From: Siphonodentalium dalli
Taxonomy: Eukaryota; Mollusca; Scaphopoda; Gadilida; Siphonodentaliidae
NCBI GenBank assembly: GCA_032622095.1
Contig: CP136067.1
Coordinates: 127,757,030 to 127,821,029 of the forward strand
Length of the DNA: 64,000 nt
Direction: 5' to 3'
The notes beneath the pieces were generated by a model. That model ran no database searches. It saw nothing but the letters and a program-made list of their open reading frames with translations, and was not told the DNA's origin. The translations under genes and the position numbers were made by a program. Position 1 is the first letter of the stretch. Every line of letters starts with the position of its first letter. Shown piece by piece: positions 12,999-62,626 of the stretch.

Positions 12999-13059
12999 CA
13001 TATCAGTAAAATAAACCTGACGGTCCGTGTTAAGGAAGCATATTAAGAGGAAAACTGTC

Positions 13060-28253: not shown

Positions 28254-28460
28254 TTTTCTCTGTTATTCGCTTTCCCAAACTACTTCGCAGGTGAATACAA
28301 AGTTGGACTAATTCACTGTTGACTGCACGCTATACTGGTTCGCAATAGGCAGACGACACCGCCAGATTGTTTACATGCATACCCGAGTCGGCGATTGGCT
28401 GCTCGTGATGTCATTATCCACAGTACTCGTTCACCTGAGAATCACGTGTGGCTTACAGGC
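28254..28460 (-). promoter_or_regulatory. Putative NUPR1 promoter: CCAAT, CRE/ATF-like site and E-box
   Basis: Upstream of the start codon, the minus strand carries CCAAT (28394-28398), TGACATCA (28406-28413) and CACGTG (28443-28448), about 140-195 bp from the ATG. CRE/ATF-type and CCAAT elements fit the known ATF-dependent stress induction of NUPR1 in vertebrates. No TATA box stands out and the start of transcription is unknown. The motifs are short and could occur by chance. Confidence 0.5.
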
Positions 28461-35000: not shown

Positions 35001-37112
35001 GGGTAATCATGATCGGCCAGTCCACTCACATTGTCCCGTTCATGCCGGTCGGGGTCATAGCATAGACCAACACCATGCTACTATTATAATCTTCGTATTG
35101 TTAACAAATCCAAATGATTTCAGTTGACCCAGTATATATACACACAAGCTGGGCAGAAACATAACAGCTAAATAGAGTCAAATTGTTCCTATAAATCATG
35201 AAGTACTGAACCTTTTGACATGCAGTGTATCGAATCGACCTGGTAACCCGGTCCGTCCCCCAACACTAATATAATCAATCCATGGGAGTTCTGCTTGTCT
35301 CCCTCAATGTTGAAAATAGGTCTGGCTAAATTGACCCCGCAACAGAAGTACGGGCATAGTTACTGTGCGTGAGATATATTGGTGCATGGGATCATATGGG
35401 ATTGATTTTCCAAGACGGCCACCGGTGGTCGCTGCGTGAGTGACCCTGAAGTCCTACACATCGACAACGCATCGATGGCACTTCATCCCTATCCCAGTGC
35501 AGTTCTGGAACTACTGCGATTTACAATTAGTTTGATGTGAAGTGTTGTTATTTGGCTGCCGACATATCAGGATGTACTGGTGTATGAAATGTGAGGATAT
35601 ATGCATAGAATAACCGAAGTAGTGCCAATTTTTACTTAACTGGTTACCCTGAGGATGAGCAGAGTTATTGGGCATTTTCGTCAATCATTTACTCATCACA
35701 AATGAGTTGAGACAAGACATTAGAGTTCTTTAGTTTGTTGAGGAGCACCAGTGAATGCATTTCTTAATGGACAATTCCCTTATTCCCATATGACGAACCA
35801 GTTAAATTTGTGCCGGTAAGTTCGAAAATCTTCGATATTTGTGGCCGTTTTGGACGCCATCTTAAAACAATTATCAAATATGAAGTGTTCGATGATGAAT
35901 ATATCGTCATTTGTGTCCAGTGTCACAAAATGCGCCACACAATAAGAAAATACCTCCCTGTAAAACGTGAGTCTCACTCATCAGCCTTGGTAGCCATGTG
36001 TGACAGTTGAAATATATATAATCGGCTTTGAACAACAATTTAAATAAAATTGAAAAAATATGAAATAGTTGACAAGAAAGTGATCATGTGAGGTTTTATG
36101 AATTTACAAATTCTGGACCAGTATTCTCGTGTGATTTTTCCACACCCCTATCAAACATTATCACAATGTTGTAAAATTTTGAGATATTAGTAAAAATTAA
36201 CATTTTTCACCATTTCCCCCCAAATTTTCATCTTAGAACACTTTCGGACAAGGTTGTTTCCAATTCCCCTTCATCAATCTCTACACTATTTCATTTTATG
36301 CCCCTAAAGCCTTATTTGCATGCGGCATTCTAACTTCTAAGTGTGAACTATACAATTCATTTTTCTGAGAAAATTATATTTTAGGGGGTGGGGTTAAGTT
36401 TATGCCCACAGCACATTTTCACATAAATATAATTGGCATTCCATCACCCAAATTGTTTTACTAGGTTCTTTGGGGCCATTTTTTGAGATATGTTGCGCGC
36501 CAATAGCCCATGTGTTCCACAAGTTATAGCCAATTATATGTGACACTTTTTTTTCAAAATCCAAGTAATATTTCGTAATTTCAAAATATTTATCGCCATT
36601 TTTTCGAACTAGCTTATACATTGGTCCAGTGTTGTACCTCATGTTGTTTTATGGTGATCTATAAATAATATAAACGATATCTTGTTCACTATAACCGCAT
36701 TATTTTTTTTATACGCTGAAACTTGTACTCGACTAAATTTTTATTTTATTGTAGGGGTAGGAGTTATCTTCCCTGAAAAATCAACTTTGGGACACATCCT
36801 GAAGCGGGCAACAAGCAAAATTGGATGCATCATATAATTACATTTAATTTGATATATTAAAACCTTTGTTGGAGGTGGGGGGGGGGGGGGTGCAGCCAAC
36901 TTCTAAACTAGAGGCTTTCTGAGAATTGGCCCACGGACTACTATTACGAAGTACATTATTAAGGAACACATAACAACTAAGAAATATATTCCTCGCGTTA
37001 TTTTTTCGACATTATAATGTTCCTGTCCATACTTCAAAAAGTTCCGAGGTTTTGTACTGGTGGAATATGCTCTCTACGGGCGTTAGCCAGAGTAGAGATT
37101 CGTGGCATGATC
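32009..37112. repeat. 5.1-kb inverted-repeat structure, arms about 0.9-1.0 kb
   Basis: The left arm (32009 to about 32995) and right arm (about 36250-37112) are diverged reverse complements. They share 'gatcatgcca..aatctctac' ends, a homopolymer C (left) / G (right) run, 'ccaccccctaaaatataa' and 'aatgccgcatg'. The central 3.2 kb (33000-36250) holds no recognisable gene; an 89-codon frame at 34242-34511 has no domain. GATC flanks both outer ends but may belong to the repeat. It is either a long-TIR element or two inverted copies of one family. Confidence 0.75.
32181..32347. mobile_element. 167-bp MITE inserted into the left arm of the inverted repeat
   Basis: The ends read GGTAAAGGTCCTAACTCG and, inverted, GGTGAAGGTCCCAACTCG, continuing AAATTTCA. 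The right arm of the inverted repeat runs directly from 'gtacttc' to 'tagtccgtgggcc' (read in the left-arm sense) without this insert. It therefore supplies an empty-site comparison. Confidence 0.82.
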
Positions 37113-37473: not shown

Positions 37474-37544
37474 AGTTATAAAATAACCCCATAATTCCAT
37501 ATGATGGCATTTTAATTTTTAAAATAAGCCCATAATTCCAATTA

Positions 37545-37650
37545 TGGCATTTCAGTGCTAACTATGCCGTTCATGGAATTTCAGTGCTATATATGTCGTT
37601 CATGGAATGTCAGTGCTAACTATGCCATTCATGGAATGTCAGTGCTAATT
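37545..37650 (+). repeat. 29-bp minisatellite, about four units
   Basis: 'tcagtgcta' recurs at 37552, 37581, 37610 and 37639. Units also share 'tatgccgttcatggaat'. The repeat ends just before the satellite array starts. Confidence 0.92.
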
Positions 37651-37667
37651 GGTTGGTGTATTATTTT

Positions 37668-38120
37668 AGGTTACACTGGTGTAAATATTTCCCATAGGCT
37701 TCAATGTTAACGTTTGTTGATCTGCATCAGAGGTCAAATGGAAACTGTTCAAACTGCCTTCGGATTATGTGAGCTTGACATCTGTGGAAACTTTCCCAAT
37801 AAAAAAATCAACACCGTCTAGCAGGGAATCCACTTCAAATTTTCGTTTTTTCATGACTAGGGTCAGTTCCGCACTAAAAAAATATTGTCATTTTTTCAAT
37901 CACACTTAAAATTTCTAAACAGCCACAACAGACTTCACCTTTAATGAATGGGCCTCTTGGCAAATGAAGTTTGTGGGAGAATGATTCCTTGAATTTTTGT
38001 CAACAGTTTACATTTAATTCATGCAACCAATCACAGCCCAGAGTGTTTTAACTGTGAAACTCTATACTCCTCCCGCAACCGCAGGGGGAGCTGCCTATAG
38101 TATTTACACCAGTGTAACCT
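37668..38120 (+). mobile_element. 453-bp TIR block E (first of 16 copies)
   Basis: It begins AGGTTACACTGGTGTAAATA and ends with the exact reverse complement. Inside the array both ends are flanked by CTTT/AAAG, so TA adjoins GGTT...AACC on both sides, as in a Tc1/mariner-type MITE. Each TIR contains the near-palindrome TTACACTGGTGTAA. Further copies start every 1353 bp. The last, 57963-58415, is followed by TGAAACG instead of AAAGCG. Confidence 0.85.
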
Positions 38121-39020
38121 AAAGCGATAGCCCGCTTTTTCGCGGAATAATTGTAACTCCCTACATTTCTTCAGAATTGCCCATCAATGGAAAAAATGTG
38201 TTCAAAAACAATATCACCCCTATGGTTCTTTATTTATCACACACAATTTAACCCCACCCCCTTTAACAAATTATTCATCAAAAAGGCACAATTTTCCACC
38301 ACCAGTCATGTTCAGGCCCCATTTTCACTCAGTTTTAGGGGTCTGGTGTTGCAAACTTGGATCAGCTATGGAAGACTGTACAATATTCTTTCCATGAGAG
38401 AACTTCTGGTGATGTGAGGTCATTGAGTCCAGATCTGATCAGCTGAGCATCAAGCGCATGACTTTATCAGCACATTGAAGAATAAAATATGACATTTTCA
38501 GGTCTGCAAGGGTGATCCAAGATAACTGGATGTGGGTGTATATTGAATTAGTTGAATAAAGATATGCTCTCTTTGAATTGCTGAAGCATTTTCTTAAATG
38601 TGTCCAAGTTTTAGTGCTATTAACCTTCAAATGACCATACCCACCAGTGGAAATGACACACTTTTATGATATATATCTGTATATCACTGGCTATAAAATC
38701 CAAAATACTTGTTAGATTAGGTTCTTATAACAATTGATATATGTGTCGTTGACATGCTCATGTTATGGGTCATTTGCATTATCATGTGACTATTACCACC
38801 TTGAATTTTTTTGAAAATACCTTGAAAAATTGGCATTTTTTATGAAAAATCTTACTATTTTTTTGGCTGATGTAAGTGAAAGAAGACATCAGCAGCAAGA
38901 ATAGCCACACCAAGCATGAGATATTCATTGGACTGAAAGACCAGGCTCTGTAAAATGCATTAAAATGCTTTAAAGTGACTCCCAGGAATCAAAAATGATA
39001 AAAAGCTATGTTTTCCCTTT
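38121..39020 (+). repeat. 900-bp spacer block S (first of 15 copies)
   Basis: It begins AAAGCGATAGCCCGC, with a small CCGC/GCGG hairpin, and ends CCCTTT before the next E. It holds the A/C variable base (38921 here). The two short open frames lack domain similarity that I can recognise, and their conservation reflects array homogeneity rather than coding constraint. Confidence 0.85.
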
Positions 39021-42000
39021 AGGTTACACTGGTGTAAATATTTCCCATAGGCTTCAATGTTAACGTTTGTTGATCTGCATCAGAGGTCAAATGGAAACTG
39101 TTCAAACTGCCTTCGGATTATGTGAGCTTGACATCTGTGGAAACTTTCCCAATAAAAAAATCAACACCGTCTAGCAGGGAATCCACTTCAAATTTTCGTT
39201 TTTTCATGACTAGGGTCAGTTCCGCACTAAAAAAATATTGTCATTTTTTCAATCACACTTAAAATTTCTAAACAGCCACAACAGACTTCACCTTTAATGA
39301 ATGGGCCTCTTGGCAAATGAAGTTTGTGGGAGAATGATTCCTTGAATTTTTGTCAACAGTTTACATTTAATTCATGCAACCAATCACAGCCCAGAGTGTT
39401 TTAACTGTGAAACTCTATACTCCTCCCGCAACCGCAGGGGGAGCTGCCTATAGTATTTACACCAGTGTAACCTAAAGCGATAGCCCGCTTTTTCGCGGAA
39501 TAATTGTAACTCCCTACATTTCTTCAGAATTGCCCATCAATGGAAAAAATGTGTTCAAAAACAATATCACCCCTATGGTTCTTTATTTATCACACACAAT
39601 TTAACCCCACCCCCTTTAACAAATTATTCATCAAAAAGGCACAATTTTCCACCACCAGTCATGTTCAGGCCCCATTTTCACTCAGTTTTAGGGGTCTGGT
39701 GTTGCAAACTTGGATCAGCTATGGAAGACTGTACAATATTCTTTCCATGAGAGAACTTCTGGTGATGTGAGGTCATTGAGTCCAGATCTGATCAGCTGAG
39801 CATCAAGCGCATGACTTTATCAGCACATTGAAGAATAAAATATGACATTTTCAGGTCTGCAAGGGTGATCCAAGATAACTGGATGTGGGTGTATATTGAA
39901 TTAGTTGAATAAAGATATGCTCTCTTTGAATTGCTGAAGCATTTTCTTAAATGTGTCCAAGTTTTAGTGCTATTAACCTTCAAATGACCATACCCACCAG
40001 TGGAAATGACACACTTTTATGATATATATCTGTATATCACTGGCTATAAAATCCAAAATACTTGTTAGATTAGGTTCTTATAACAATTGATATATGTGTC
40101 GTTGACATGCTCATGTTATGGGTCATTTGCATTATCATGTGACTATTACCACCTTGAATTTTTTTGAAAATACCTTGAAAAATTGGCATTTTTTATGAAA
40201 AATCTTACTATTTTTTTGGCTGATGTAAGTGAAAGAAGACATCAGCAGCAAGAATAGCCACACCAAGCATGAGCTATTCATTGGACTGAAAGACCAGGCT
40301 CTGTAAAATGCATTAAAATGCTTTAAAGTGACTCCCAGGAATCAAAAATGATAAAAAGCTATTTTTTCCCTTTAGGTTACACTGGTGTAAATATTTCCCA
40401 TAGGCTTCAATGTTAACGTTTGTTGATCTGCATCAGAGGTCAAATGGAAACTGTTCAAACTGCCTTCGGATTATGTGAGCTTGACATCTGTGGAAACTTT
40501 CCCAATAAAAAAATCAACACCGTCTAGCAGGGAATCCACTTCAAATTTTCGTTTTTTCATGACTAGGGTCAGTTCCGCACTAAAAAAATATTGTCATTTT
40601 TTCAATCACACTTAAAATTTCTAAACAGCCACAACAGACTTCACCTTTAATGAATGGGCCTCTTGGCAAATGAAGTTTGTGGGAGAATGATTCCTTGAAT
40701 TTTTGTCAACAGTTTACATTTAATTCATGCAACCAATCACAGCCCAGAGTGTTTTAACTGTGAAACTCTATACTCCTCCCGCAACCGCAGGGGGAGCTGC
40801 CTATAGTATTTACACCAGTGTAACCTAAAGCGATAGCCCGCTTTTTCGCGGAATAATTGTAACTCCCTACATTTCTTCAGAATTGCCCATCAATGGAAAA
40901 AATGTGTTCAAAAACAATATCACCCCTATGGTTCTTTATTTATCACACACAATTTAACCCCACCCCCTTTAACAAATTATTCATCAAAAAGGCACAATTT
41001 TCCACCACCAGTCATGTTCAGGCCCCATTTTCACTCAGTTTTAGGGGTCTGGTGTTGCAAACTTGGATCAGCTATGGAAGACTGTACAATATTCTTTCCA
41101 TGAGAGAACTTCTGGTGATGTGAGGTCATTGAGTCCAGATCTGATCAGCTGAGCATCAAGCGCATGACTTTATCAGCACATTGAAGAATAAAATATGACA
41201 TTTTCAGGTCTGCAAGGGTGATCCAAGATAACTGGATGTGGGTGTATATTGAATTAGTTGAATAAAGATATGCTCTCTTTGAATTGCTGAAGCATTTTCT
41301 TAAATGTGTCCAAGTTTTAGTGCTATTAACCTTCAAATGACCATACCCACCAGTGGAAATGACACACTTTTATGATATATATCTGTATATCACTGGCTAT
41401 AAAATCCAAAATACTTGTTAGATTAGGTTCTTATAACAATTGATATATGTGTCGTTGACATGCTCATGTTATGGGTCATTTGCATTATCATGTGACTATT
41501 ACCACCTTGAATTTTTTTGAAAATACCTTGAAAAATTGGCATTTTTTATGAAAAATCTTACTATTTTTTTGGCTGATGTAAGTGAAAGAAGACATCAGCA
41601 GCAAGAATAGCCACACCAAGCATGAGCTATTCATTGGACTGAAAGACCAGGCTCTGTAAAATGCATTAAAATGCTTTAAAGTGACTCCCAGGAATCAAAA
41701 ATGATAAAAAGCTATTTTTTCCCTTTAGGTTACACTGGTGTAAATATTTCCCATAGGCTTCAATGTTAACGTTTGTTGATCTGCATCAGAGGTCAAATGG
41801 AAACTGTTCAAACTGCCTTCGGATTATGTGAGCTTGACATCTGTGGAAACTTTCCCAATAAAAAAATCAACACCGTCTAGCAGGGAATCCACTTCAAATT
41901 TTCGTTTTTTCATGACTAGGGTCAGTTCCGCACTAAAAAAATATTGTCATTTTTTCAATCACACTTAAAATTTCTAAACAGCCACAACAGACTTCACCTT

Positions 42001-45000
42001 TAATGAATGGGCCTCTTGGCAAATGAAGTTTGTGGGAGAATGATTCCTTGAATTTTTGTCAACAGTTTACATTTAATTCATGCAACCAATCACAGCCCAG
42101 AGTGTTTTAACTGTGAAACTCTATACTCCTCCCGCAACCGCAGGGGGAGCTGCCTATAGTATTTACACCAGTGTAACCTAAAGCGATAGCCCGCTTTTTC
42201 GCGGAATAATTGTAACTCCCTACATTTCTTCAGAATTGCCCATCAATGGAAAAAATGTGTTCAAAAACAATATCACCCCTATGGTTCTTTATTTATCACA
42301 CACAATTTAACCCCACCCCCTTTAACAAATTATTCATCAAAAAGGCACAATTTTCCACCACCAGTCATGTTCAGGCCCCATTTTCACTCAGTTTTAGGGG
42401 TCTGGTGTTGCAAACTTGGATCAGCTATGGAAGACTGTACAATATTCTTTCCATGAGAGAACTTCTGGTGATGTGAGGTCATTGAGTCCAGATCTGATCA
42501 GCTGAGCATCAAGCGCATGACTTTATCAGCACATTGAAGAATAAAATATGACATTTTCAGGTCTGCAAGGGTGATCCAAGATAACTGGATGTGGGTGTAT
42601 ATTGAATTAGTTGAATAAAGATATGCTCTCTTTGAATTGCTGAAGCATTTTCTTAAATGTGTCCAAGTTTTAGTGCTATTAACCTTCAAATGACCATACC
42701 CACCAGTGGAAATGACACACTTTTATGATATATATCTGTATATCACTGGCTATAAAATCCAAAATACTTGTTAGATTAGGTTCTTATAACAATTGATATA
42801 TGTGTCGTTGACATGCTCATGTTATGGGTCATTTGCATTATCATGTGACTATTACCACCTTGAATTTTTTTGAAAATACCTTGAAAAATTGGCATTTTTT
42901 ATGAAAAATCTTACTATTTTTTTGGCTGATGTAAGTGAAAGAAGACATCAGCAGCAAGAATAGCCACACCAAGCATGAGCTATTCATTGGACTGAAAGAC
43001 CAGGCTCTGTAAAATGCATTAAAATGCTTTAAAGTGACTCCCAGGAATCAAAAATGATAAAAAGCTATTTTTTCCCTTTAGGTTACACTGGTGTAAATAT
43101 TTCCCATAGGCTTCAATGTTAACGTTTGTTGATCTGCATCAGAGGTCAAATGGAAACTGTTCAAACTGCCTTCGGATTATGTGAGCTTGACATCTGTGGA
43201 AACTTTCCCAATAAAAAAATCAACACCGTCTAGCAGGGAATCCACTTCAAATTTTCGTTTTTTCATGACTAGGGTCAGTTCCGCACTAAAAAAATATTGT
43301 CATTTTTTCAATCACACTTAAAATTTCTAAACAGCCACAACAGACTTCACCTTTAATGAATGGGCCTCTTGGCAAATGAAGTTTGTGGGAGAATGATTCC
43401 TTGAATTTTTGTCAACAGTTTACATTTAATTCATGCAACCAATCACAGCCCAGAGTGTTTTAACTGTGAAACTCTATACTCCTCCCGCAACCGCAGGGGG
43501 AGCTGCCTATAGTATTTACACCAGTGTAACCTAAAGCGATAGCCCGCTTTTTCGCGGAATAATTGTAACTCCCTACATTTCTTCAGAATTGCCCATCAAT
43601 GGAAAAAATGTGTTCAAAAACAATATCACCCCTATGGTTCTTTATTTATCACACACAATTTAACCCCACCCCCTTTAACAAATTATTCATCAAAAAGGCA
43701 CAATTTTCCACCACCAGTCATGTTCAGGCCCCATTTTCACTCAGTTTTAGGGGTCTGGTGTTGCAAACTTGGATCAGCTATGGAAGACTGTACAATATTC
43801 TTTCCATGAGAGAACTTCTGGTGATGTGAGGTCATTGAGTCCAGATCTGATCAGCTGAGCATCAAGCGCATGACTTTATCAGCACATTGAAGAATAAAAT
43901 ATGACATTTTCAGGTCTGCAAGGGTGATCCAAGATAACTGGATGTGGGTGTATATTGAATTAGTTGAATAAAGATATGCTCTCTTTGAATTGCTGAAGCA
44001 TTTTCTTAAATGTGTCCAAGTTTTAGTGCTATTAACCTTCAAATGACCATACCCACCAGTGGAAATGACACACTTTTATGATATATATCTGTATATCACT
44101 GGCTATAAAATCCAAAATACTTGTTAGATTAGGTTCTTATAACAATTGATATATGTGTCGTTGACATGCTCATGTTATGGGTCATTTGCATTATCATGTG
44201 ACTATTACCACCTTGAATTTTTTTGAAAATACCTTGAAAAATTGGCATTTTTTATGAAAAATCTTACTATTTTTTTGGCTGATGTAAGTGAAAGAAGACA
44301 TCAGCAGCAAGAATAGCCACACCAAGCATGAGATATTCATTGGACTGAAAGACCAGGCTCTGTAAAATGCATTAAAATGCTTTAAAGTGACTCCCAGGAA
44401 TCAAAAATGATAAAAAGCTATTTTTTCCCTTTAGGTTACACTGGTGTAAATATTTCCCATAGGCTTCAATGTTAACGTTTGTTGATCTGCATCAGAGGTC
44501 AAATGGAAACTGTTCAAACTGCCTTCGGATTATGTGAGCTTGACATCTGTGGAAACTTTCCCAATAAAAAAATCAACACCGTCTAGCAGGGAATCCACTT
44601 CAAATTTTCGTTTTTTCATGACTAGGGTCAGTTCCGCACTAAAAAAATATTGTCATTTTTTCAATCACACTTAAAATTTCTAAACAGCCACAACAGACTT
44701 CACCTTTAATGAATGGGCCTCTTGGCAAATGAAGTTTGTGGGAGAATGATTCCTTGAATTTTTGTCAACAGTTTACATTTAATTCATGCAACCAATCACA
44801 GCCCAGAGTGTTTTAACTGTGAAACTCTATACTCCTCCCGCAACCGCAGGGGGAGCTGCCTATAGTATTTACACCAGTGTAACCTAAAGCGATAGCCCGC
44901 TTTTTCGCGGAATAATTGTAACTCCCTACATTTCTTCAGAATTGCCCATCAATGGAAAAAATGTGTTCAAAAACAATATCACCCCTATGGTTCTTTATTT

Positions 45001-48000
45001 ATCACACACAATTTAACCCCACCCCCTTTAACAAATTATTCATCAAAAAGGCACAATTTTCCACCACCAGTCATGTTCAGGCCCCATTTTCACTCAGTTT
45101 TAGGGGTCTGGTGTTGCAAACTTGGATCAGCTATGGAAGACTGTACAATATTCTTTCCATGAGAGAACTTCTGGTGATGTGAGGTCATTGAGTCCAGATC
45201 TGATCAGCTGAGCATCAAGCGCATGACTTTATCAGCACATTGAAGAATAAAATATGACATTTTCAGGTCTGCAAGGGTGATCCAAGATAACTGGATGTGG
45301 GTGTATATTGAATTAGTTGAATAAAGATATGCTCTCTTTGAATTGCTGAAGCATTTTCTTAAATGTGTCCAAGTTTTAGTGCTATTAACCTTCAAATGAC
45401 CATACCCACCAGTGGAAATGACACACTTTTATGATATATATCTGTATATCACTGGCTATAAAATCCAAAATACTTGTTAGATTAGGTTCTTATAACAATT
45501 GATATATGTGTCGTTGACATGCTCATGTTATGGGTCATTTGCATTATCATGTGACTATTACCACCTTGAATTTTTTTGAAAATACCTTGAAAAATTGGCA
45601 TTTTTTATGAAAAATCTTACTATTTTTTTGGCTGATGTAAGTGAAAGAAGACATCAGCAGCAAGAATAGCCACACCAAGCATGAGATATTCATTGGACTG
45701 AAAGACCAGGCTCTGTAAAATGCATTAAAATGCTTTAAAGTGACTCCCAGGAATCAAAAATGATAAAAAGCTATTTTTTCCCTTTAGGTTACACTGGTGT
45801 AAATATTTCCCATAGGCTTCAATGTTAACGTTTGTTGATCTGCATCAGAGGTCAAATGGAAACTGTTCAAACTGCCTTCGGATTATGTGAGCTTGACATC
45901 TGTGGAAACTTTCCCAATAAAAAAATCAACACCGTCTAGCAGGGAATCCACTTCAAATTTTCGTTTTTTCATGACTAGGGTCAGTTCCGCACTAAAAAAA
46001 TATTGTCATTTTTTCAATCACACTTAAAATTTCTAAACAGCCACAACAGACTTCACCTTTAATGAATGGGCCTCTTGGCAAATGAAGTTTGTGGGAGAAT
46101 GATTCCTTGAATTTTTGTCAACAGTTTACATTTAATTCATGCAACCAATCACAGCCCAGAGTGTTTTAACTGTGAAACTCTATACTCCTCCCGCAACCGC
46201 AGGGGGAGCTGCCTATAGTATTTACACCAGTGTAACCTAAAGCGATAGCCCGCTTTTTCGCGGAATAATTGTAACTCCCTACATTTCTTCAGAATTGCCC
46301 ATCAATGGAAAAAATGTGTTCAAAAACAATATCACCCCTATGGTTCTTTATTTATCACACACAATTTAACCCCACCCCCTTTAACAAATTATTCATCAAA
46401 AAGGCACAATTTTCCACCACCAGTCATGTTCAGGCCCCATTTTCACTCAGTTTTAGGGGTCTGGTGTTGCAAACTTGGATCAGCTATGGAAGACTGTACA
46501 ATATTCTTTCCATGAGAGAACTTCTGGTGATGTGAGGTCATTGAGTCCAGATCTGATCAGCTGAGCATCAAGCGCATGACTTTATCAGCACATTGAAGAA
46601 TAAAATATGACATTTTCAGGTCTGCAAGGGTGATCCAAGATAACTGGATGTGGGTGTATATTGAATTAGTTGAATAAAGATATGCTCTCTTTGAATTGCT
46701 GAAGCATTTTCTTAAATGTGTCCAAGTTTTAGTGCTATTAACCTTCAAATGACCATACCCACCAGTGGAAATGACACACTTTTATGATATATATCTGTAT
46801 ATCACTGGCTATAAAATCCAAAATACTTGTTAGATTAGGTTCTTATAACAATTGATATATGTGTCGTTGACATGCTCATGTTATGGGTCATTTGCATTAT
46901 CATGTGACTATTACCACCTTGAATTTTTTTGAAAATACCTTGAAAAATTGGCATTTTTTATGAAAAATCTTACTATTTTTTTGGCTGATGTAAGTGAAAG
47001 AAGACATCAGCAGCAAGAATAGCCACACCAAGCATGAGCTATTCATTGGACTGAAAGACCAGGCTCTGTAAAATGCATTAAAATGCTTTAAAGTGACTCC
47101 CAGGAATCAAAAATGATAAAAAGCTATTTTTTCCCTTTAGGTTACACTGGTGTAAATATTTCCCATAGGCTTCAATGTTAACGTTTGTTGATCTGCATCA
47201 GAGGTCAAATGGAAACTGTTCAAACTGCCTTCGGATTATGTGAGCTTGACATCTGTGGAAACTTTCCCAATAAAAAAATCAACACCGTCTAGCAGGGAAT
47301 CCACTTCAAATTTTCGTTTTTTCATGACTAGGGTCAGTTCCGCACTAAAAAAATATTGTCATTTTTTCAATCACACTTAAAATTTCTAAACAGCCACAAC
47401 AGACTTCACCTTTAATGAATGGGCCTCTTGGCAAATGAAGTTTGTGGGAGAATGATTCCTTGAATTTTTGTCAACAGTTTACATTTAATTCATGCAACCA
47501 ATCACAGCCCAGAGTGTTTTAACTGTGAAACTCTATACTCCTCCCGCAACCGCAGGGGGAGCTGCCTATAGTATTTACACCAGTGTAACCTAAAGCGATA
47601 GCCCGCTTTTTCGCGGAATAATTGTAACTCCCTACATTTCTTCAGAATTGCCCATCAATGGAAAAAATGTGTTCAAAAACAATATCACCCCTATGGTTCT
47701 TTATTTATCACACACAATTTAACCCCACCCCCTTTAACAAATTATTCATCAAAAAGGCACAATTTTCCACCACCAGTCATGTTCAGGCCCCATTTTCACT
47801 CAGTTTTAGGGGTCTGGTGTTGCAAACTTGGATCAGCTATGGAAGACTGTACAATATTCTTTCCATGAGAGAACTTCTGGTGATGTGAGGTCATTGAGTC
47901 CAGATCTGATCAGCTGAGCATCAAGCGCATGACTTTATCAGCACATTGAAGAATAAAATATGACATTTTCAGGTCTGCAAGGGTGATCCAAGATAACTGG

Positions 48001-51000
48001 ATGTGGGTGTATATTGAATTAGTTGAATAAAGATATGCTCTCTTTGAATTGCTGAAGCATTTTCTTAAATGTGTCCAAGTTTTAGTGCTATTAACCTTCA
48101 AATGACCATACCCACCAGTGGAAATGACACACTTTTATGATATATATCTGTATATCACTGGCTATAAAATCCAAAATACTTGTTAGATTAGGTTCTTATA
48201 ACAATTGATATATGTGTCGTTGACATGCTCATGTTATGGGTCATTTGCATTATCATGTGACTATTACCACCTTGAATTTTTTTGAAAATACCTTGAAAAA
48301 TTGGCATTTTTTATGAAAAATCTTACTATTTTTTTGGCTGATGTAAGTGAAAGAAGACATCAGCAGCAAGAATAGCCACACCAAGCATGAGATATTCATT
48401 GGACTGAAAGACCAGGCTCTGTAAAATGCATTAAAATGCTTTAAAGTGACTCCCAGGAATCAAAAATGATAAAAAGCTATTTTTTCCCTTTAGGTTACAC
48501 TGGTGTAAATATTTCCCATAGGCTTCAATGTTAACGTTTGTTGATCTGCATCAGAGGTCAAATGGAAACTGTTCAAACTGCCTTCGGATTATGTGAGCTT
48601 GACATCTGTGGAAACTTTCCCAATAAAAAAATCAACACCGTCTAGCAGGGAATCCACTTCAAATTTTCGTTTTTTCATGACTAGGGTCAGTTCCGCACTA
48701 AAAAAATATTGTCATTTTTTCAATCACACTTAAAATTTCTAAACAGCCACAACAGACTTCACCTTTAATGAATGGGCCTCTTGGCAAATGAAGTTTGTGG
48801 GAGAATGATTCCTTGAATTTTTGTCAACAGTTTACATTTAATTCATGCAACCAATCACAGCCCAGAGTGTTTTAACTGTGAAACTCTATACTCCTCCCGC
48901 AACCGCAGGGGGAGCTGCCTATAGTATTTACACCAGTGTAACCTAAAGCGATAGCCCGCTTTTTCGCGGAATAATTGTAACTCCCTACATTTCTTCAGAA
49001 TTGCCCATCAATGGAAAAAATGTGTTCAAAAACAATATCACCCCTATGGTTCTTTATTTATCACACACAATTTAACCCCACCCCCTTTAACAAATTATTC
49101 ATCAAAAAGGCACAATTTTCCACCACCAGTCATGTTCAGGCCCCATTTTCACTCAGTTTTAGGGGTCTGGTGTTGCAAACTTGGATCAGCTATGGAAGAC
49201 TGTACAATATTCTTTCCATGAGAGAACTTCTGGTGATGTGAGGTCATTGAGTCCAGATCTGATCAGCTGAGCATCAAGCGCATGACTTTATCAGCACATT
49301 GAAGAATAAAATATGACATTTTCAGGTCTGCAAGGGTGATCCAAGATAACTGGATGTGGGTGTATATTGAATTAGTTGAATAAAGATATGCTCTCTTTGA
49401 ATTGCTGAAGCATTTTCTTAAATGTGTCCAAGTTTTAGTGCTATTAACCTTCAAATGACCATACCCACCAGTGGAAATGACACACTTTTATGATATATAT
49501 CTGTATATCACTGGCTATAAAATCCAAAATACTTGTTAGATTAGGTTCTTATAACAATTGATATATGTGTCGTTGACATGCTCATGTTATGGGTCATTTG
49601 CATTATCATGTGACTATTACCACCTTGAATTTTTTTGAAAATACCTTGAAAAATTGGCATTTTTTATGAAAAATCTTACTATTTTTTTGGCTGATGTAAG
49701 TGAAAGAAGACATCAGCAGCAAGAATAGCCACACCAAGCATGAGATATTCATTGGACTGAAAGACCAGGCTCTGTAAAATGCATTAAAATGCTTTAAAGT
49801 GACTCCCAGGAATCAAAAATGATAAAAAGCTATTTTTTCCCTTTAGGTTACACTGGTGTAAATATTTCCCATAGGCTTCAATGTTAACGTTTGTTGATCT
49901 GCATCAGAGGTCAAATGGAAACTGTTCAAACTGCCTTCGGATTATGTGAGCTTGACATCTGTGGAAACTTTCCCAATAAAAAAATCAACACCGTCTAGCA
50001 GGGAATCCACTTCAAATTTTCGTTTTTTCATGACTAGGGTCAGTTCCGCACTAAAAAAATATTGTCATTTTTTCAATCACACTTAAAATTTCTAAACAGC
50101 CACAACAGACTTCACCTTTAATGAATGGGCCTCTTGGCAAATGAAGTTTGTGGGAGAATGATTCCTTGAATTTTTGTCAACAGTTTACATTTAATTCATG
50201 CAACCAATCACAGCCCAGAGTGTTTTAACTGTGAAACTCTATACTCCTCCCGCAACCGCAGGGGGAGCTGCCTATAGTATTTACACCAGTGTAACCTAAA
50301 GCGATAGCCCGCTTTTTCGCGGAATAATTGTAACTCCCTACATTTCTTCAGAATTGCCCATCAATGGAAAAAATGTGTTCAAAAACAATATCACCCCTAT
50401 GGTTCTTTATTTATCACACACAATTTAACCCCACCCCCTTTAACAAATTATTCATCAAAAAGGCACAATTTTCCACCACCAGTCATGTTCAGGCCCCATT
50501 TTCACTCAGTTTTAGGGGTCTGGTGTTGCAAACTTGGATCAGCTATGGAAGACTGTACAATATTCTTTCCATGAGAGAACTTCTGGTGATGTGAGGTCAT
50601 TGAGTCCAGATCTGATCAGCTGAGCATCAAGCGCATGACTTTATCAGCACATTGAAGAATAAAATATGACATTTTCAGGTCTGCAAGGGTGATCCAAGAT
50701 AACTGGATGTGGGTGTATATTGAATTAGTTGAATAAAGATATGCTCTCTTTGAATTGCTGAAGCATTTTCTTAAATGTGTCCAAGTTTTAGTGCTATTAA
50801 CCTTCAAATGACCATACCCACCAGTGGAAATGACACACTTTTATGATATATATCTGTATATCACTGGCTATAAAATCCAAAATACTTGTTAGATTAGGTT
50901 CTTATAACAATTGATATATGTGTCGTTGACATGCTCATGTTATGGGTCATTTGCATTATCATGTGACTATTACCACCTTGAATTTTTTTGAAAATACCTT

Positions 51001-54000
51001 GAAAAATTGGCATTTTTTATGAAAAATCTTACTATTTTTTTGGCTGATGTAAGTGAAAGAAGACATCAGCAGCAAGAATAGCCACACCAAGCATGAGCTA
51101 TTCATTGGACTGAAAGACCAGGCTCTGTAAAATGCATTAAAATGCTTTAAAGTGACTCCCAGGAATCAAAAATGATAAAAAGCTATTTTTTCCCTTTAGG
51201 TTACACTGGTGTAAATATTTCCCATAGGCTTCAATGTTAACGTTTGTTGATCTGCATCAGAGGTCAAATGGAAACTGTTCAAACTGCCTTCGGATTATGT
51301 GAGCTTGACATCTGTGGAAACTTTCCCAATAAAAAAATCAACACCGTCTAGCAGGGAATCCACTTCAAATTTTCGTTTTTTCATGACTAGGGTCAGTTCC
51401 GCACTAAAAAAATATTGTCATTTTTTCAATCACACTTAAAATTTCTAAACAGCCACAACAGACTTCACCTTTAATGAATGGGCCTCTTGGCAAATGAAGT
51501 TTGTGGGAGAATGATTCCTTGAATTTTTGTCAACAGTTTACATTTAATTCATGCAACCAATCACAGCCCAGAGTGTTTTAACTGTGAAACTCTATACTCC
51601 TCCCGCAACCGCAGGGGGAGCTGCCTATAGTATTTACACCAGTGTAACCTAAAGCGATAGCCCGCTTTTTCGCGGAATAATTGTAACTCCCTACATTTCT
51701 TCAGAATTGCCCATCAATGGAAAAAATGTGTTCAAAAACAATATCACCCCTATGGTTCTTTATTTATCACACACAATTTAACCCCACCCCCTTTAACAAA
51801 TTATTCATCAAAAAGGCACAATTTTCCACCACCAGTCATGTTCAGGCCCCATTTTCACTCAGTTTTAGGGGTCTGGTGTTGCAAACTTGGATCAGCTATG
51901 GAAGACTGTACAATATTCTTTCCATGAGAGAACTTCTGGTGATGTGAGGTCATTGAGTCCAGATCTGATCAGCTGAGCATCAAGCGCATGACTTTATCAG
52001 CACATTGAAGAATAAAATATGACATTTTCAGGTCTGCAAGGGTGATCCAAGATAACTGGATGTGGGTGTATATTGAATTAGTTGAATAAAGATATGCTCT
52101 CTTTGAATTGCTGAAGCATTTTCTTAAATGTGTCCAAGTTTTAGTGCTATTAACCTTCAAATGACCATACCCACCAGTGGAAATGACACACTTTTATGAT
52201 ATATATCTGTATATCACTGGCTATAAAATCCAAAATACTTGTTAGATTAGGTTCTTATAACAATTGATATATGTGTCGTTGACATGCTCATGTTATGGGT
52301 CATTTGCATTATCATGTGACTATTACCACCTTGAATTTTTTTGAAAATACCTTGAAAAATTGGCATTTTTTATGAAAAATCTTACTATTTTTTTGGCTGA
52401 TGTAAGTGAAAGAAGACATCAGCAGCAAGAATAGCCACACCAAGCATGAGATATTCATTGGACTGAAAGACCAGGCTCTGTAAAATGCATTAAAATGCTT
52501 TAAAGTGACTCCCAGGAATCAAAAATGATAAAAAGCTATTTTTTCCCTTTAGGTTACACTGGTGTAAATATTTCCCATAGGCTTCAATGTTAACGTTTGT
52601 TGATCTGCATCAGAGGTCAAATGGAAACTGTTCAAACTGCCTTCGGATTATGTGAGCTTGACATCTGTGGAAACTTTCCCAATAAAAAAATCAACACCGT
52701 CTAGCAGGGAATCCACTTCAAATTTTCGTTTTTTCATGACTAGGGTCAGTTCCGCACTAAAAAAATATTGTCATTTTTTCAATCACACTTAAAATTTCTA
52801 AACAGCCACAACAGACTTCACCTTTAATGAATGGGCCTCTTGGCAAATGAAGTTTGTGGGAGAATGATTCCTTGAATTTTTGTCAACAGTTTACATTTAA
52901 TTCATGCAACCAATCACAGCCCAGAGTGTTTTAACTGTGAAACTCTATACTCCTCCCGCAACCGCAGGGGGAGCTGCCTATAGTATTTACACCAGTGTAA
53001 CCTAAAGCGATAGCCCGCTTTTTCGCGGAATAATTGTAACTCCCTACATTTCTTCAGAATTGCCCATCAATGGAAAAAATGTGTTCAAAAACAATATCAC
53101 CCCTATGGTTCTTTATTTATCACACACAATTTAACCCCACCCCCTTTAACAAATTATTCATCAAAAAGGCACAATTTTCCACCACCAGTCATGTTCAGGC
53201 CCCATTTTCACTCAGTTTTAGGGGTCTGGTGTTGCAAACTTGGATCAGCTATGGAAGACTGTACAATATTCTTTCCATGAGAGAACTTCTGGTGATGTGA
53301 GGTCATTGAGTCCAGATCTGATCAGCTGAGCATCAAGCGCATGACTTTATCAGCACATTGAAGAATAAAATATGACATTTTCAGGTCTGCAAGGGTGATC
53401 CAAGATAACTGGATGTGGGTGTATATTGAATTAGTTGAATAAAGATATGCTCTCTTTGAATTGCTGAAGCATTTTCTTAAATGTGTCCAAGTTTTAGTGC
53501 TATTAACCTTCAAATGACCATACCCACCAGTGGAAATGACACACTTTTATGATATATATCTGTATATCACTGGCTATAAAATCCAAAATACTTGTTAGAT
53601 TAGGTTCTTATAACAATTGATATATGTGTCGTTGACATGCTCATGTTATGGGTCATTTGCATTATCATGTGACTATTACCACCTTGAATTTTTTTGAAAA
53701 TACCTTGAAAAATTGGCATTTTTTATGAAAAATCTTACTATTTTTTTGGCTGATGTAAGTGAAAGAAGACATCAGCAGCAAGAATAGCCACACCAAGCAT
53801 GAGATATTCATTGGACTGAAAGACCAGGCTCTGTAAAATGCATTAAAATGCTTTAAAGTGACTCCCAGGAATCAAAAATGATAAAAAGCTATTTTTTCCC
53901 TTTAGGTTACACTGGTGTAAATATTTCCCATAGGCTTCAATGTTAACGTTTGTTGATCTGCATCAGAGGTCAAATGGAAACTGTTCAAACTGCCTTCGGA

Positions 54001-57000
54001 TTATGTGAGCTTGACATCTGTGGAAACTTTCCCAATAAAAAAATCAACACCGTCTAGCAGGGAATCCACTTCAAATTTTCGTTTTTTCATGACTAGGGTC
54101 AGTTCCGCACTAAAAAAATATTGTCATTTTTTCAATCACACTTAAAATTTCTAAACAGCCACAACAGACTTCACCTTTAATGAATGGGCCTCTTGGCAAA
54201 TGAAGTTTGTGGGAGAATGATTCCTTGAATTTTTGTCAACAGTTTACATTTAATTCATGCAACCAATCACAGCCCAGAGTGTTTTAACTGTGAAACTCTA
54301 TACTCCTCCCGCAACCGCAGGGGGAGCTGCCTATAGTATTTACACCAGTGTAACCTAAAGCGATAGCCCGCTTTTTCGCGGAATAATTGTAACTCCCTAC
54401 ATTTCTTCAGAATTGCCCATCAATGGAAAAAATGTGTTCAAAAACAATATCACCCCTATGGTTCTTTATTTATCACACACAATTTAACCCCACCCCCTTT
54501 AACAAATTATTCATCAAAAAGGCACAATTTTCCACCACCAGTCATGTTCAGGCCCCATTTTCACTCAGTTTTAGGGGTCTGGTGTTGCAAACTTGGATCA
54601 GCTATGGAAGACTGTACAATATTCTTTCCATGAGAGAACTTCTGGTGATGTGAGGTCATTGAGTCCAGATCTGATCAGCTGAGCATCAAGCGCATGACTT
54701 TATCAGCACATTGAAGAATAAAATATGACATTTTCAGGTCTGCAAGGGTGATCCAAGATAACTGGATGTGGGTGTATATTGAATTAGTTGAATAAAGATA
54801 TGCTCTCTTTGAATTGCTGAAGCATTTTCTTAAATGTGTCCAAGTTTTAGTGCTATTAACCTTCAAATGACCATACCCACCAGTGGAAATGACACACTTT
54901 TATGATATATATCTGTATATCACTGGCTATAAAATCCAAAATACTTGTTAGATTAGGTTCTTATAACAATTGATATATGTGTCGTTGACATGCTCATGTT
55001 ATGGGTCATTTGCATTATCATGTGACTATTACCACCTTGAATTTTTTTGAAAATACCTTGAAAAATTGGCATTTTTTATGAAAAATCTTACTATTTTTTT
55101 GGCTGATGTAAGTGAAAGAAGACATCAGCAGCAAGAATAGCCACACCAAGCATGAGCTATTCATTGGACTGAAAGACCAGGCTCTGTAAAATGCATTAAA
55201 ATGCTTTAAAGTGACTCCCAGGAATCAAAAATGATAAAAAGCTATTTTTTCCCTTTAGGTTACACTGGTGTAAATATTTCCCATAGGCTTCAATGTTAAC
55301 GTTTGTTGATCTGCATCAGAGGTCAAATGGAAACTGTTCAAACTGCCTTCGGATTATGTGAGCTTGACATCTGTGGAAACTTTCCCAATAAAAAAATCAA
55401 CACCGTCTAGCAGGGAATCCACTTCAAATTTTCGTTTTTTCATGACTAGGGTCAGTTCCGCACTAAAAAAATATTGTCATTTTTTCAATCACACTTAAAA
55501 TTTCTAAACAGCCACAACAGACTTCACCTTTAATGAATGGGCCTCTTGGCAAATGAAGTTTGTGGGAGAATGATTCCTTGAATTTTTGTCAACAGTTTAC
55601 ATTTAATTCATGCAACCAATCACAGCCCAGAGTGTTTTAACTGTGAAACTCTATACTCCTCCCGCAACCGCAGGGGGAGCTGCCTATAGTATTTACACCA
55701 GTGTAACCTAAAGCGATAGCCCGCTTTTTCGCGGAATAATTGTAACTCCCTACATTTCTTCAGAATTGCCCATCAATGGAAAAAATGTGTTCAAAAACAA
55801 TATCACCCCTATGGTTCTTTATTTATCACACACAATTTAACCCCACCCCCTTTAACAAATTATTCATCAAAAAGGCACAATTTTCCACCACCAGTCATGT
55901 TCAGGCCCCATTTTCACTCAGTTTTAGGGGTCTGGTGTTGCAAACTTGGATCAGCTATGGAAGACTGTACAATATTCTTTCCATGAGAGAACTTCTGGTG
56001 ATGTGAGGTCATTGAGTCCAGATCTGATCAGCTGAGCATCAAGCGCATGACTTTATCAGCACATTGAAGAATAAAATATGACATTTTCAGGTCTGCAAGG
56101 GTGATCCAAGATAACTGGATGTGGGTGTATATTGAATTAGTTGAATAAAGATATGCTCTCTTTGAATTGCTGAAGCATTTTCTTAAATGTGTCCAAGTTT
56201 TAGTGCTATTAACCTTCAAATGACCATACCCACCAGTGGAAATGACACACTTTTATGATATATATCTGTATATCACTGGCTATAAAATCCAAAATACTTG
56301 TTAGATTAGGTTCTTATAACAATTGATATATGTGTCGTTGACATGCTCATGTTATGGGTCATTTGCATTATCATGTGACTATTACCACCTTGAATTTTTT
56401 TGAAAATACCTTGAAAAATTGGCATTTTTTATGAAAAATCTTACTATTTTTTTGGCTGATGTAAGTGAAAGAAGACATCAGCAGCAAGAATAGCCACACC
56501 AAGCATGAGATATTCATTGGACTGAAAGACCAGGCTCTGTAAAATGCATTAAAATGCTTTAAAGTGACTCCCAGGAATCAAAAATGATAAAAAGCTATTT
56601 TTTCCCTTTAGGTTACACTGGTGTAAATATTTCCCATAGGCTTCAATGTTAACGTTTGTTGATCTGCATCAGAGGTCAAATGGAAACTGTTCAAACTGCC
56701 TTCGGATTATGTGAGCTTGACATCTGTGGAAACTTTCCCAATAAAAAAATCAACACCGTCTAGCAGGGAATCCACTTCAAATTTTCGTTTTTTCATGACT
56801 AGGGTCAGTTCCGCACTAAAAAAATATTGTCATTTTTTCAATCACACTTAAAATTTCTAAACAGCCACAACAGACTTCACCTTTAATGAATGGGCCTCTT
56901 GGCAAATGAAGTTTGTGGGAGAATGATTCCTTGAATTTTTGTCAACAGTTTACATTTAATTCATGCAACCAATCACAGCCCAGAGTGTTTTAACTGTGAA

Positions 57001-58415
57001 ACTCTATACTCCTCCCGCAACCGCAGGGGGAGCTGCCTATAGTATTTACACCAGTGTAACCTAAAGCGATAGCCCGCTTTTTCGCGGAATAATTGTAACT
57101 CCCTACATTTCTTCAGAATTGCCCATCAATGGAAAAAATGTGTTCAAAAACAATATCACCCCTATGGTTCTTTATTTATCACACACAATTTAACCCCACC
57201 CCCTTTAACAAATTATTCATCAAAAAGGCACAATTTTCCACCACCAGTCATGTTCAGGCCCCATTTTCACTCAGTTTTAGGGGTCTGGTGTTGCAAACTT
57301 GGATCAGCTATGGAAGACTGTACAATATTCTTTCCATGAGAGAACTTCTGGTGATGTGAGGTCATTGAGTCCAGATCTGATCAGCTGAGCATCAAGCGCA
57401 TGACTTTATCAGCACATTGAAGAATAAAATATGACATTTTCAGGTCTGCAAGGGTGATCCAAGATAACTGGATGTGGGTGTATATTGAATTAGTTGAATA
57501 AAGATATGCTCTCTTTGAATTGCTGAAGCATTTTCTTAAATGTGTCCAAGTTTTAGTGCTATTAACCTTCAAATGACCATACCCACCAGTGGAAATGACA
57601 CACTTTTATGATATATATCTGTATATCACTGGCTATAAAATCCAAAATACTTGTTAGATTAGGTTCTTATAACAATTGATATATGTGTCGTTGACATGCT
57701 CATGTTATGGGTCATTTGCATTATCATGTGACTATTACCACCTTGAATTTTTTTGAAAATACCTTGAAAAATTGGCATTTTTTATGAAAAATCTTACTAT
57801 TTTTTTGGCTGATGTAAGTGAAAGAAGACATCAGCAGCAAGAATAGCCACACCAAGCATGAGATATTCATTGGACTGAAAGACCAGGCTCTGTAAAATGC
57901 ATTAAAATGCTTTAAAGTGACTCCCAGGAATCAAAAATGATAAAAAGCTATTTTTTCCCTTTAGGTTACACTGGTGTAAATATTTCCCATAGGCTTCAAT
58001 GTTAACGTTTGTTGATCTGCATCAGAGGTCAAATGGAAACTGTTCAAACTGCCTTCGGATTATGTGAGCTTGACATCTGTGGAAACTTTCCCAATAAAAA
58101 AATCAACACCGTCTAGCAGGGAATCCACTTCAAATTTTCGTTTTTTCATGACTAGGGTCAGTTCCGCACTAAAAAAATATTGTCATTTTTTCAATCACAC
58201 TTAAAATTTCTAAACAGCCACAACAGACTTCACCTTTAATGAATGGGCCTCTTGGCAAATGAAGTTTGTGGGAGAATGATTCCTTGAATTTTTGTCAACA
58301 GTTTACATTTAATTCATGCAACCAATCACAGCCCAGAGTGTTTTAACTGTGAAACTCTATACTCCTCCCGCAACCGCAGGGGGAGCTGCCTATAGTATTT
58401 ACACCAGTGTAACCT

Positions 58416-60368
58416 TGAAACGACCACGTTTCATATAAAGCATTCCGTGCGCAGCTTTGAAGATGTGTTTACGTTCGACTGCAAACCATAAACGAAAGCA
58501 ATCTATGGCCACACATAGTTGAGTTAGATTTGTCAGCACAGATATATGTCCTATATCAGACACAGTATATTTTGATCGTATGTTGGTGTATAGATTATAT
58601 TTGTATAACGACCACGGTAAGTAAACACCAGATGCTGGTGACTGTGCACTTGAGTCATACACGCATGCCACTGGATGACTAATCATATATAGGCATATGG
58701 CACATTCGGATATACAAGATGTCACACCAAACACATGAATATGCAAGAATAAAAATGTTCAAGTTATACCCAGCATGTAATTAATTGTTAGCCAATATAT
58801 CATAGCAAAAATATATTAAGGGTCAGACGCACGTATTGCCAAAATTTCCTAGTATTTCAAAATGGTTTTTCTTAAAATATGTCTTGAATTTCTTTTTGAA
58901 ATTTGGTATAAGCGATTATTGTGACACACAATTTAATACACGTTGGATATTATAACACCATTTATTTTTTGTTGGGGAGCCCAGCAAGTTTAATTTCAAG
59001 TATTGATTGCGAAAGATTTGATGTGCCGGAATTGTCGAGACGACCCGGCTGACGGAACAAACCCAACATTGTTAAGTTCCGCAATTACAGCATAAAGGGG
59101 CCATGAGCACACCCCCAATCCCTTTTATATTAACTTTCGAGTACGAGCATGAAATTTGCTTTGATTGCACCTGGATACTATACTGATCATAAAAACAGAA
59201 CTTAAGAACAGTTTATTTTGCAGAATTTTCAAATAAGAAAGGGTCCTTGATATTTGCTATGGGTAATCTCAGACATGTACTAAACATAGAAACCCAACTT
59301 AAGACGCCGATTTCTGCAGTATTTTCAGATAAGAAGGGGCATGCAGTTTGGCGCCTCCCATAAAACTACGGAAATTCCTTATTAGTCCTGGACATAACTT
59401 CATCACACTCATTTTCTTCCTTATTATATCCCTCAACTTGTAAGCAATATTAGCATGAAAAAAAGTATGGCAATATGAGGTCAAACATGGCCGCCGTTTT
59501 TCAGACGAGGTACTAAGCCAGATTGATCCAACTATAACGAGAACACTATTGGCAAATGTATACAAAGATTTAACTTTTTGTGAAAATAAAACATAGTTCC
59601 ATCTTTTTAGCCCAAACTTTGAACTCCCCATGAAATATGTACGCCACAGTGGCAACCTTTGTGGACATTTGACTATTTTTCACTTATGTTTCTACATCAG
59701 TTTCTGCTGCTTGGAACTGGTGGAGAATTGTGACTTTATGTTTTATTGTTCATGTTAACAGATCATTGGATCAATGCAATATGTCATATGTCAGGCGCCA
59801 TCGCCTTACGATCCCTCAAAAGGTCGATTTTACCGAACGCGGTAGGATATTTTCCAAAATTCACCAAAATGCCGGGCCGTGACAAATGACGTTGTCATGC
59901 AACTTTATTAATTTTGACTCTTATAACATTACCATTAATATTAGATAAACTATACATGAAAGTTGACAAAACTTCACGTTTCAGGTTTGGACCATGTTTT
60001 CAAGAAAAAATTAAACTATCTACTACATCTTAAATTGGTTACACCACAGGGGCGTGTCGTTAAACGAGTAAAATATACATTAAAAAATATTTAATTTTAA
60101 AACGAGCGCGCCACTTTAAAAAACGCATCGCTATACAATACATACGCTACAAGGGGGTCTACTTTTTCAAATACCTCCTCAATTCTAACGGCTATAACTC
60201 GCAAACGCCTGAATCGATTCTTAAAGTTCCAAGGCCAGTCGACCGAGTAAAAGTTATAAGCGAGTTTGCGATACCCGTTCGACGGGAACGGGTAAATCTG
60301 TGAACATCGTCACGGTCACTTGGGTACTTTCAATGCAGCACATAAAGCGATAGCGAATTGAAACGGGT
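58416..60368. other. Right flank of the array, no recognised gene
   Basis: A small hairpin (TGAAACG-acca-CGTTTCA, 58415-58432) directly abuts the array. Minus-strand open frames of 115 codons (58399-58746) and 118 codons (59299-59655) have no recognisable domain, and the first runs into the array. Sequence at 60100-60300 is richer in CG. Confidence 0.4.
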
Positions 60369-60784
60369 AGATTCACTTTCGGATACCCGTTTAGGTTCGG
60401 ACATTCCAAGATGGCGGCGCCCACTTAAGCAGATAAACGGTAAGTGTATATATTGTCTCCAAGCAGCAATCAACGACATCTTTCGGTGATACACCTTGAA
60501 AGAGTTATGTAGGAATTTGTATGCCCAACACATACGTAACTCGCCTTTCGCATGACAGGCATGTGAATTGTTGTATTTGGCGTGTCAAGTCGTCATAATT
60601 TTTATAAATTTTATCGAGGCGGCAAAATGTTCGCTTTTTCGTATTTTTCTGGCCCTGGGCTCATGCATCCGCAAATTTATGTATTGTTGTGGGTAGATTA
60701 GGTCACCACACATCTTCGGAATGCAAAACCGGCGATGTTTTTATTATCTAACTCCGAAAAACGACCTTTGAAAATTTCAAAATG

Positions 60785-60880
60785 TTCAGGTTCGGATTCG
60801 CAACATTCGTGATGATTTTGTTCAGGTTCAGACACAATTTTCGTTCAGGTTCGGACAAATTTGGTTCAGGTTCGGACGCA
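60785..60880 (+). repeat. Subterminal TTCAGGTTCGGA motif cluster (left arm)
   Basis: TTCAGGTTCGGA or a one-base variant occurs at about 60785, 60821, 60844 and 60865. A related TTTAGGTTCGGA sits near the outer end at 60390. The right arm carries the mirror set as TCCGAACCTGAAC at about 62893-62995. Spacing near 20 bp suggests protein-binding sites. Confidence 0.8.
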
Positions 60881-62520: not shown

Positions 62521-62626
62521 TGGGATACTAGGAGATTTAATACCCGGATGTCTCTTTTTGAAACCCCTTGGCTCCGCCTCGGGGTTCAAAATCGAGAACC
62601 AGGTATTAAATATCCATGTATCCCCG
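62521..62626. repeat. Imperfect hairpin inside the 60.4-63.4 kb element
   Basis: 'gggatacta...tttaatacc' faces 'ggtattaaat...tgtatccc', with 'gaaacccc' facing 'ggggttc' near the loop. It may be a nested MITE. Confidence 0.65.

Follow-up and report, generated by a model that had tools for sequence, protein, structure and literature searches.

Comparison with described systems

Tandem arrays that grow between direct copies of a flanking repeat have been described in several systems, and the locus reported here can be compared with each of them. It is a 20,748-bp array located at positions 37668-58415 of a 64,000-nucleotide stretch of the scaphopod Siphonodentalium dalli (contig CP136067.1; this whole stretch is hereafter called the window). 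The array consists of fifteen 1353-bp units followed by a sixteenth copy of the first 453 bp of the unit and is written (E-S)15-E, where E denotes the first 453 bp of the unit and S the remaining 900 bp, or spacer. PMC8831618 presents a 'high-speed rail' model, in which arrays of the type repeat + unit + repeat grow by unequal sister-chromatid exchange. There, as here, a unit lying between direct repeats gives rise to (repeat-unit)n-repeat and the edges of the array are found at the flanking repeat. However, the repeats in that system are short and flank genes, whereas in the present array the flanking repeat is a 453-bp block with terminal inverted repeats (TIRs), and S contains no gene according to the Rfam and Pfam scans made.

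Satellites seeded by dimers or multiple insertions of transposable elements (TEs) are a second related case, with up to 16 tandem copies recorded for hobo (McGurk and Barbash 2018, as summarised in the review PMC12628747). Recent tandem expansion from direct copies of a DNA transposon would be common to those satellites and to our array, but in TE-dimer satellites the unit is the element itself, whereas two thirds of the unit here is spacer lying outside the element. The same review describes Xstir and miDNA4, satellites of Xenopus related to miniature inverted-repeat transposable elements (MITEs). These also combine short TIR elements with tandem arrays, but their tandem repeats are derived from, or located inside, one element between its TIRs, whereas each unit of the present array carries a complete TIR block.

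According to PMC4067079 and PMC7492417, HINE (Helentron-like) elements are characterised by palindromic inverted repeats located 2-4 nt from a T-rich 5' end, a hairpin following the right repeat and the absence of target duplication, and their 3' end is placed 38-60 bp beyond the subterminal repeat (PMC4067079). Near-end palindromic inverted repeats, a T-rich target and the lack of an outer duplication are found both at our locus and in HINE/DINE-1 elements and tandem Helitron arrays (PMC4067079, PMC7492417 and PMC12628747), and the hairpin on the right of E may be a further common feature. In contrast to those elements, the repeats of E are terminal and mirror-symmetric, no 3' tail is conserved and the units include a spacer. 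An array of exactly the form (E-S)n-E was not met among the titles and abstract openings listed in topic searches of the literature, which is no proof of absence.

Structure of the array

The array and its two components are located as follows.

37668-58415, no strand assigned: whole tandem array (E-S)15-E with a unit of 1353 bp (word spacing, BLAST and unit comparison).
37668-38120, forward strand: first E, 453 bp; identical copies recur every 1353 bp, the last at 57963-58415 (16 of 16 identical).
38121-39020, forward strand: first S, 900 bp, present in 15 copies, with a private G at 39010 (unit comparison; no Rfam or Pfam match above the cut-off).

The word AGGTTACACTGGTGTAAATA occurs in 16 copies on the forward strand and its reverse complement also in 16 copies, both series being spaced by 1353 bp between 37668 and 58415, and the total length corresponds to 20748 = 15 x 1353 + 453. 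Because the longest period in the Tandem Repeats Finder run on the window was 500, the array is not listed by that program. BLAST of the unit (E-value up to 1) yielded five matches of only 18-23 bp in the rest of the window (E-values 0.17-0.59), and neither a recognisable solo E or solo S in the other 43 kb nor an S-S junction lacking E within the window was found in this search. The exact 20-bp TIR was not found in the collections viral_contigs and genome_contigs, which contain bacterial, archaeal and viral sequences and no animal collections. Seven viral contigs containing a 17-base degenerate form of the TIR were taken as chance matches: BLAST of the unit against all seven returned the searched word itself (14-18 bp) and scattered weak matches, the best with an E-value of 0.006.

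All 16 copies of E share a single sequence. The 15 copies of S are represented by three sequence versions, which are distinguished by two variable sites only (unit positions 1254 and 1343). Position 1254 is C in units 2, 3, 4, 7, 10 and 13 (6 of 15) and A in the other nine, and G at position 1343 is private to unit 1. The fifteen units are free of indels and differ pairwise at a mean of 0.65 of 1353 bases (maximum, 2), which points to whole-unit homologous copying. The GC content is 0.389 in E and 0.358 in S, with values of 0.373 and 0.387 in the 5-kb flanks. An earlier sequence-only reading of this DNA had described the array as (E-S)15-E with a 453-bp E carrying perfect 20-bp TIRs and a 900-bp S, and word spacing and copy comparison confirmed this layout. 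That reading had also taken the near-identity of the copies to imply recent amplification or strong homogenisation, in agreement with the identity of all E copies and the very low divergence between units. The palindromic nature of the terminal repeats, the TA at three of the four distinct junctions, the hairpins at the right end of E and the three-unit periodicity, all described below, had gone unnoticed in it.

The variant at position 1254 is ordered along the array, reading A CC CAA CAA CAA CAA from unit 1 to unit 15.

41727-57962, forward strand: units 4-15, in which the 1254 variant forms CAA x4, with C at 42980, 47039, 51098 and 55157 (unit comparison).

A perfect period-3 run of this length (12 units) is found in 24 of the 5005 arrangements of six C among 15 units, and the corresponding value for any period from 2 to 5 is 1.2%. 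The CAA x4 pattern suggests either expansion in three-unit blocks or a three-unit loop in the assembly.

Edges of the array and identity of the E block

Both edges of the array coincide with ends of E, with the following features.

37668-37687, forward strand: left terminal repeat, 20 bp, containing the palindrome TTACACTGGTGTAA at 37671-37684 (word and palindrome scan).
58396-58415, reverse strand: right-hand 20-bp terminal repeat of the last E, in inverted orientation, containing TTACACCAGTGTAA at 58399-58412 (word and palindrome scan).
37660-37667, forward strand: left junction ATTATTTT|AGG, with TA across the edge and three T shared with the end of S (junction comparison).
37544-37648, forward strand: 29-bp minisatellite of 3.6 copies in the left flank, ending 19 bp short of the array (Tandem Repeats Finder).

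Any tandem array ending in a part-unit can be written as (E-S)n-E, and the division into E and S follows from the phase by definition. The informative point is therefore not the phasing itself, but the fact that the two ends of the overhang form a perfect 20-bp inverted repeat, which sits at the very edge bases of the array; by simple arithmetic, such a repeat is expected at two fixed places by chance with a probability of about 4^-20. On the left, the homology extends 3 bp outside the array (TTT, from 37665), a stretch shared with the end of S. Among 1000 shuffles, 25% (80 bp) and 69% (60 bp) reached the alignment score of the start of S against the right flank, and 99% reached that of the end of S against the left flank. 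Together with the BLAST matches outside the array, of 18-23 bp only, these shuffle-level alignments uphold the earlier statement that the flanks are unrelated to S.

Four distinct junctions are present, namely the left edge given above, the inner S-E junction (CCCTTT|AGG), the inner E-S junction (CCT|AAAGCG) and the right edge (CCT|TGAAAC). TA is found across the tip of E at three of these four, the right edge being the exception with TT (background frequency of TA, 8.2%). Accordingly, the first E is flanked by a TA/TA pair and the last E by TA on the left and TT on the right. The outer pair of the array, TA/TT, represents no duplication, and longer outer tracts are unrelated, which bears out the previous remark that no target duplication is visible at the outer edges. 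If E is instead read as AGG...AACC, T|T is found at all four distinct junctions, a result that is partly implied by the TA flanks.

Each terminal repeat is itself palindromic (left, TTACAC-TG-GTGTAA; right, TTACAC-CA-GTGTAA). A weaker inverted similarity, of the kind known from MITE-like elements, continues inside the 20-bp repeats, with a local score of 35 against a shuffled mean of 21.3 (reached by 7 of 500 shuffles), and includes an inner inverted pair of 14 bp with 93% identity (37736-37749 and 38002-38015). The palindrome, with up to two mismatches, occurs 34 times in the window; 32 of these occurrences are inside the array, and the other two do not exceed the number expected by chance (3.83). 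When inverted palindrome pairs were sought in the left 37.7 kb, 10 rows were obtained, among which two pairs of rows overlap; base shuffles gave 0-2 pairs. One of the rows, a second palindrome pair without mismatches and with an inverted TG/CA centre, lies at 9317/12131 (ATATTATGTAATAT / ATATTACATAATAT); it is AT-rich and possibly due to chance. Further palindrome-tipped elements may thus exist in the window. A literature string search gave no match to the palindrome strings, and no transposon paper was seen, judging by titles, among the listed matches to four shorter strings of 11-12 bases.

E holds none of the open reading frames (ORFs) listed for the first unit. The window contains 135 ORFs (stop to stop, 70 aa or longer), and no transposase was detected among the 20 of them scanned against Pfam. 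Short length (453 bp), perfect 20-bp TIRs and, within that scan, no transposase are the features of a MITE, and E looks like a non-autonomous, MITE-like TIR element in its sequence organisation. A TIR MITE with TA duplication would be Tc1/mariner- or ISL2EU-like; E shows TA at three of its four distinct junctions and TT at the right edge. Two ORFs of S were scanned and neither scored above the Pfam cut-off. No RNA family reached the Rfam gathering score in the window, the four weak matches in the first unit being far below theirs. The possibility that the monomer is a functional RNA or protein gene was rejected on present evidence, as these scans gave no match above the thresholds.

Sequences adjoining the ends of E

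Two hairpins of 6-7 bp directly abut the right end of E, one in each of its sequence contexts.

38121-38138, forward strand: AAAGCG-ATAGCC-CGCTTT, the hairpin with which S begins (an equally good fold in 17 of 200 shuffles).
58416-58433, forward strand: TGAAACG-ACCA-CGTTTCA, the hairpin with which the right flank begins, next to the last E (an equally good fold in none of 200 shuffles).

A stem of at least 6 within 0-2 nt is found at 0.9% of background places, and squaring this rate gives a chance probability of 8e-5 for both hairpins, which were, however, spotted post hoc among many features. When 57-nt contexts were folded, the right flank gave a z value of -3.5 (better than 200 of 200 shuffles) and the S side a z value of -1.4, and the two left-side contexts of E showed no folding signal in the shuffle test. 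A shared 3' module of E comprising the hairpins was rejected, as the start of S and the right flank do not align above shuffles. The hairpins at the right end of E are suggestive only.

Origin of the array

In our judgement, there is about an even chance that the array was built in place by homologous exchange between two TIR elements lying in direct orientation on either side of S (E-S-E). A short non-autonomous TIR element would have come to be present, as two direct copies, on both sides of 900 bp of ordinary DNA, and misaligned homologous exchange between the copies, by unequal sister-chromatid exchange or a comparable error of replication, would have duplicated E-S. Recurrence of this step would produce (E-S)n-E, and since every product would have this form, the array would always be bounded by the outer tips of its first and last E, irrespective of n. 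Repeated exchange would maintain the identity of the units, and later steps may have copied three units at once to give CAA x4. A single type of event accounts for edges that are exact, for units that are near-identical and free of indels, and for growth in blocks. The (repeat-unit)n-repeat form and the unrelated outer flanks are those expected of an array amplified between direct TE copies, and the TA on both sides of the first E is as after insertion of such an element into TA. Recombination or re-replication between direct TIR copies flanking S, the preference of the sequence-only reading, is still the simplest account of (E-S)15-E and its exact edges; the transposon nature of E, the E-S-E ancestor, exchange rather than replication of a circle and the three-unit steps are what we infer beyond these observations.

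Several points weigh against in-place exchange. The last E has TA on the left and TT on the right, so the duplication from its insertion must be missing or decayed, and BLAST of the unit revealed no solo E, solo S or single E-S-E elsewhere in the window. The hairpins at the right end of E are left unexplained. In addition, the S-side flanks of E are outward-complementary at 6 of 7 places beyond the TIR, a level seen in 0.2% of random flank pairs and spotted post hoc; such complementarity would not be expected if E had inserted at each end of S in separate events. Finally, an E+S circle entering a solo E yields identical edges.

This last scenario is the main rival, although we regard it as unlikely. 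E would have inserted into an already circular or tandem S, and a circle of E and S, perhaps enlarged by rolling-circle replication, would have recombined into a solo E at the locus, so that the edges of the array are those of the solo E. The E copies within the array are flanked by TA/TA, and the complementary ends of S are near-palindromic (TCCCTTTA / TAAAGCGA), which fits insertion of E into a single palindromic TA site at which the two ends of S met. This outward complementarity is the sole point that favours circle entry over an in-place E-S-E, and the three-unit periodicity would fit a trimer circle. However, the palindrome, too, was noticed after the fact, a solo E at the locus would have had TA/TT flanks and hence an imperfect duplication, and the E-less S-S junction was not found in the window.

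The array might also be the product of a HINE-like, rolling-circle process, which we consider improbable. The palindromic repeats would then be subterminal, the T-run would be the 5' end and the hairpins would terminate replication; the concatemer would have begun at the left end of E, stopped at its right end and inserted between two Ts without duplication. In favour of this, the 14-bp palindromic inverted repeats begin 3 nt inside the T-run (TTACACTGGTGTAA lies 3 nt after TTTT), as in HINE elements with inverted repeats of 12-15 bp located 2-4 nt from the 5' end at a T-rich site. A hairpin follows the right-hand repeat in both contexts, T|T is obtained at all four junctions with E as AGG...AACC, and no outer duplication is present. 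However, the homology between the last E and the other copies stops 3 bp past the repeat, instead of extending over the 38-60 bp to the HINE 3' end given in PMC4067079. The two hairpin tails are unrelated and possibly belong to target DNA, the fold on the S side is not significant (17 of 200), T|T is partly a consequence of the TA flanks, and the inverted repeat is 20 bp long, mirror-symmetric and reaches both tips of E. Because of the end of homology at 3 bp, membership of E in Helentron/HINE was not accepted, and E may act like a Helentron-type element without being filed there.

There is a slim chance that the unit number and the three-unit periodicity arise partly from the assembly, through a graph loop walked repeatedly, and that a shorter E-S array is real. 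Near-identical units over 20.7 kb are hard to assemble, and a three-unit loop would presumably print CAA repeatedly; however, the private base of unit 1 and the break of the period in units 2-3 show that one loop was not copied throughout. We give a still slimmer chance to a scenario in which E is a palindrome-tipped rolling-circle element inserting between a T-run and a hairpin without target duplication, so that E and 900 bp of adjoining DNA circled many times, with start and stop at the palindromic tips of E, and were inserted in a single event as a concatemer of 20.7 kb. The least likely account is the macro-element raised in the earlier reading; the whole 20.7 kb would have moved in as one, mobilised by a transposase acting on the outermost TIRs. 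The array does end in an intact TIR tip on either side, but the outer edges are TA/TT with unrelated longer tracts, and this missing duplication counts against it because an insertion as young as the 0.05% difference between units implies should still show one.

Genomic setting

The array is located 9.4 kb upstream of a NUPR1/p8 gene, and no obvious satellite block surrounds it in the window. This gene is the ORF at 28038-28262 on the reverse strand, predicted to comprise 72 codons from the first ATG and ending in TGA, which matched Pfam Phospho_p8 (PF10195) with an E-value of 4.9e-21 and 75.5 bits against a cut-off of 25; the family is one that indicates an animal host. Other repeats and ORF pieces in the window are as follows.

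25591-27812: diverged 164-bp tandem array adjoining the NUPR1 gene (13.8 copies, 82% matches); the units alternate, and hence a 319-bp period also scores.
32009-37112: degenerate inverted pair over about 5.1 kb with 76-87% identity, which stops 0.55 kb short of the array.
60373-63407: roughly 3-kb element whose long inverted arms match over 428 bp at 98% and 73 bp at 100%; each arm contains 21-bp tandem repeats, and GAT may form a direct repeat at the edges of the element.
10156-13003: 488-bp inverted pair with 93% identity spanning 2.8 kb, with inner ends CACAGTGTATAAACC / GGTTTATACACTGTG; by its structure, probably another TIR element.
19614-20214, reverse strand: ORF pieces without a Pfam match above the cut-off, which we take to resemble the C-terminal part of a non-long-terminal-repeat reverse transcriptase.

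Implications for the birth of satellites

Satellite arrays rarely keep a readable birth mark. In the present array, a transposon-like block provides the tips at which both edges fall and the units are nearly identical, so that a single locus allows the initial stages of the process to be tested. Different ancestral junctions are predicted by in-place exchange between two element copies, by circle entry and by rolling-circle insertion, and the interest of the array lies mainly in its value as a test locus for the birth of a satellite.

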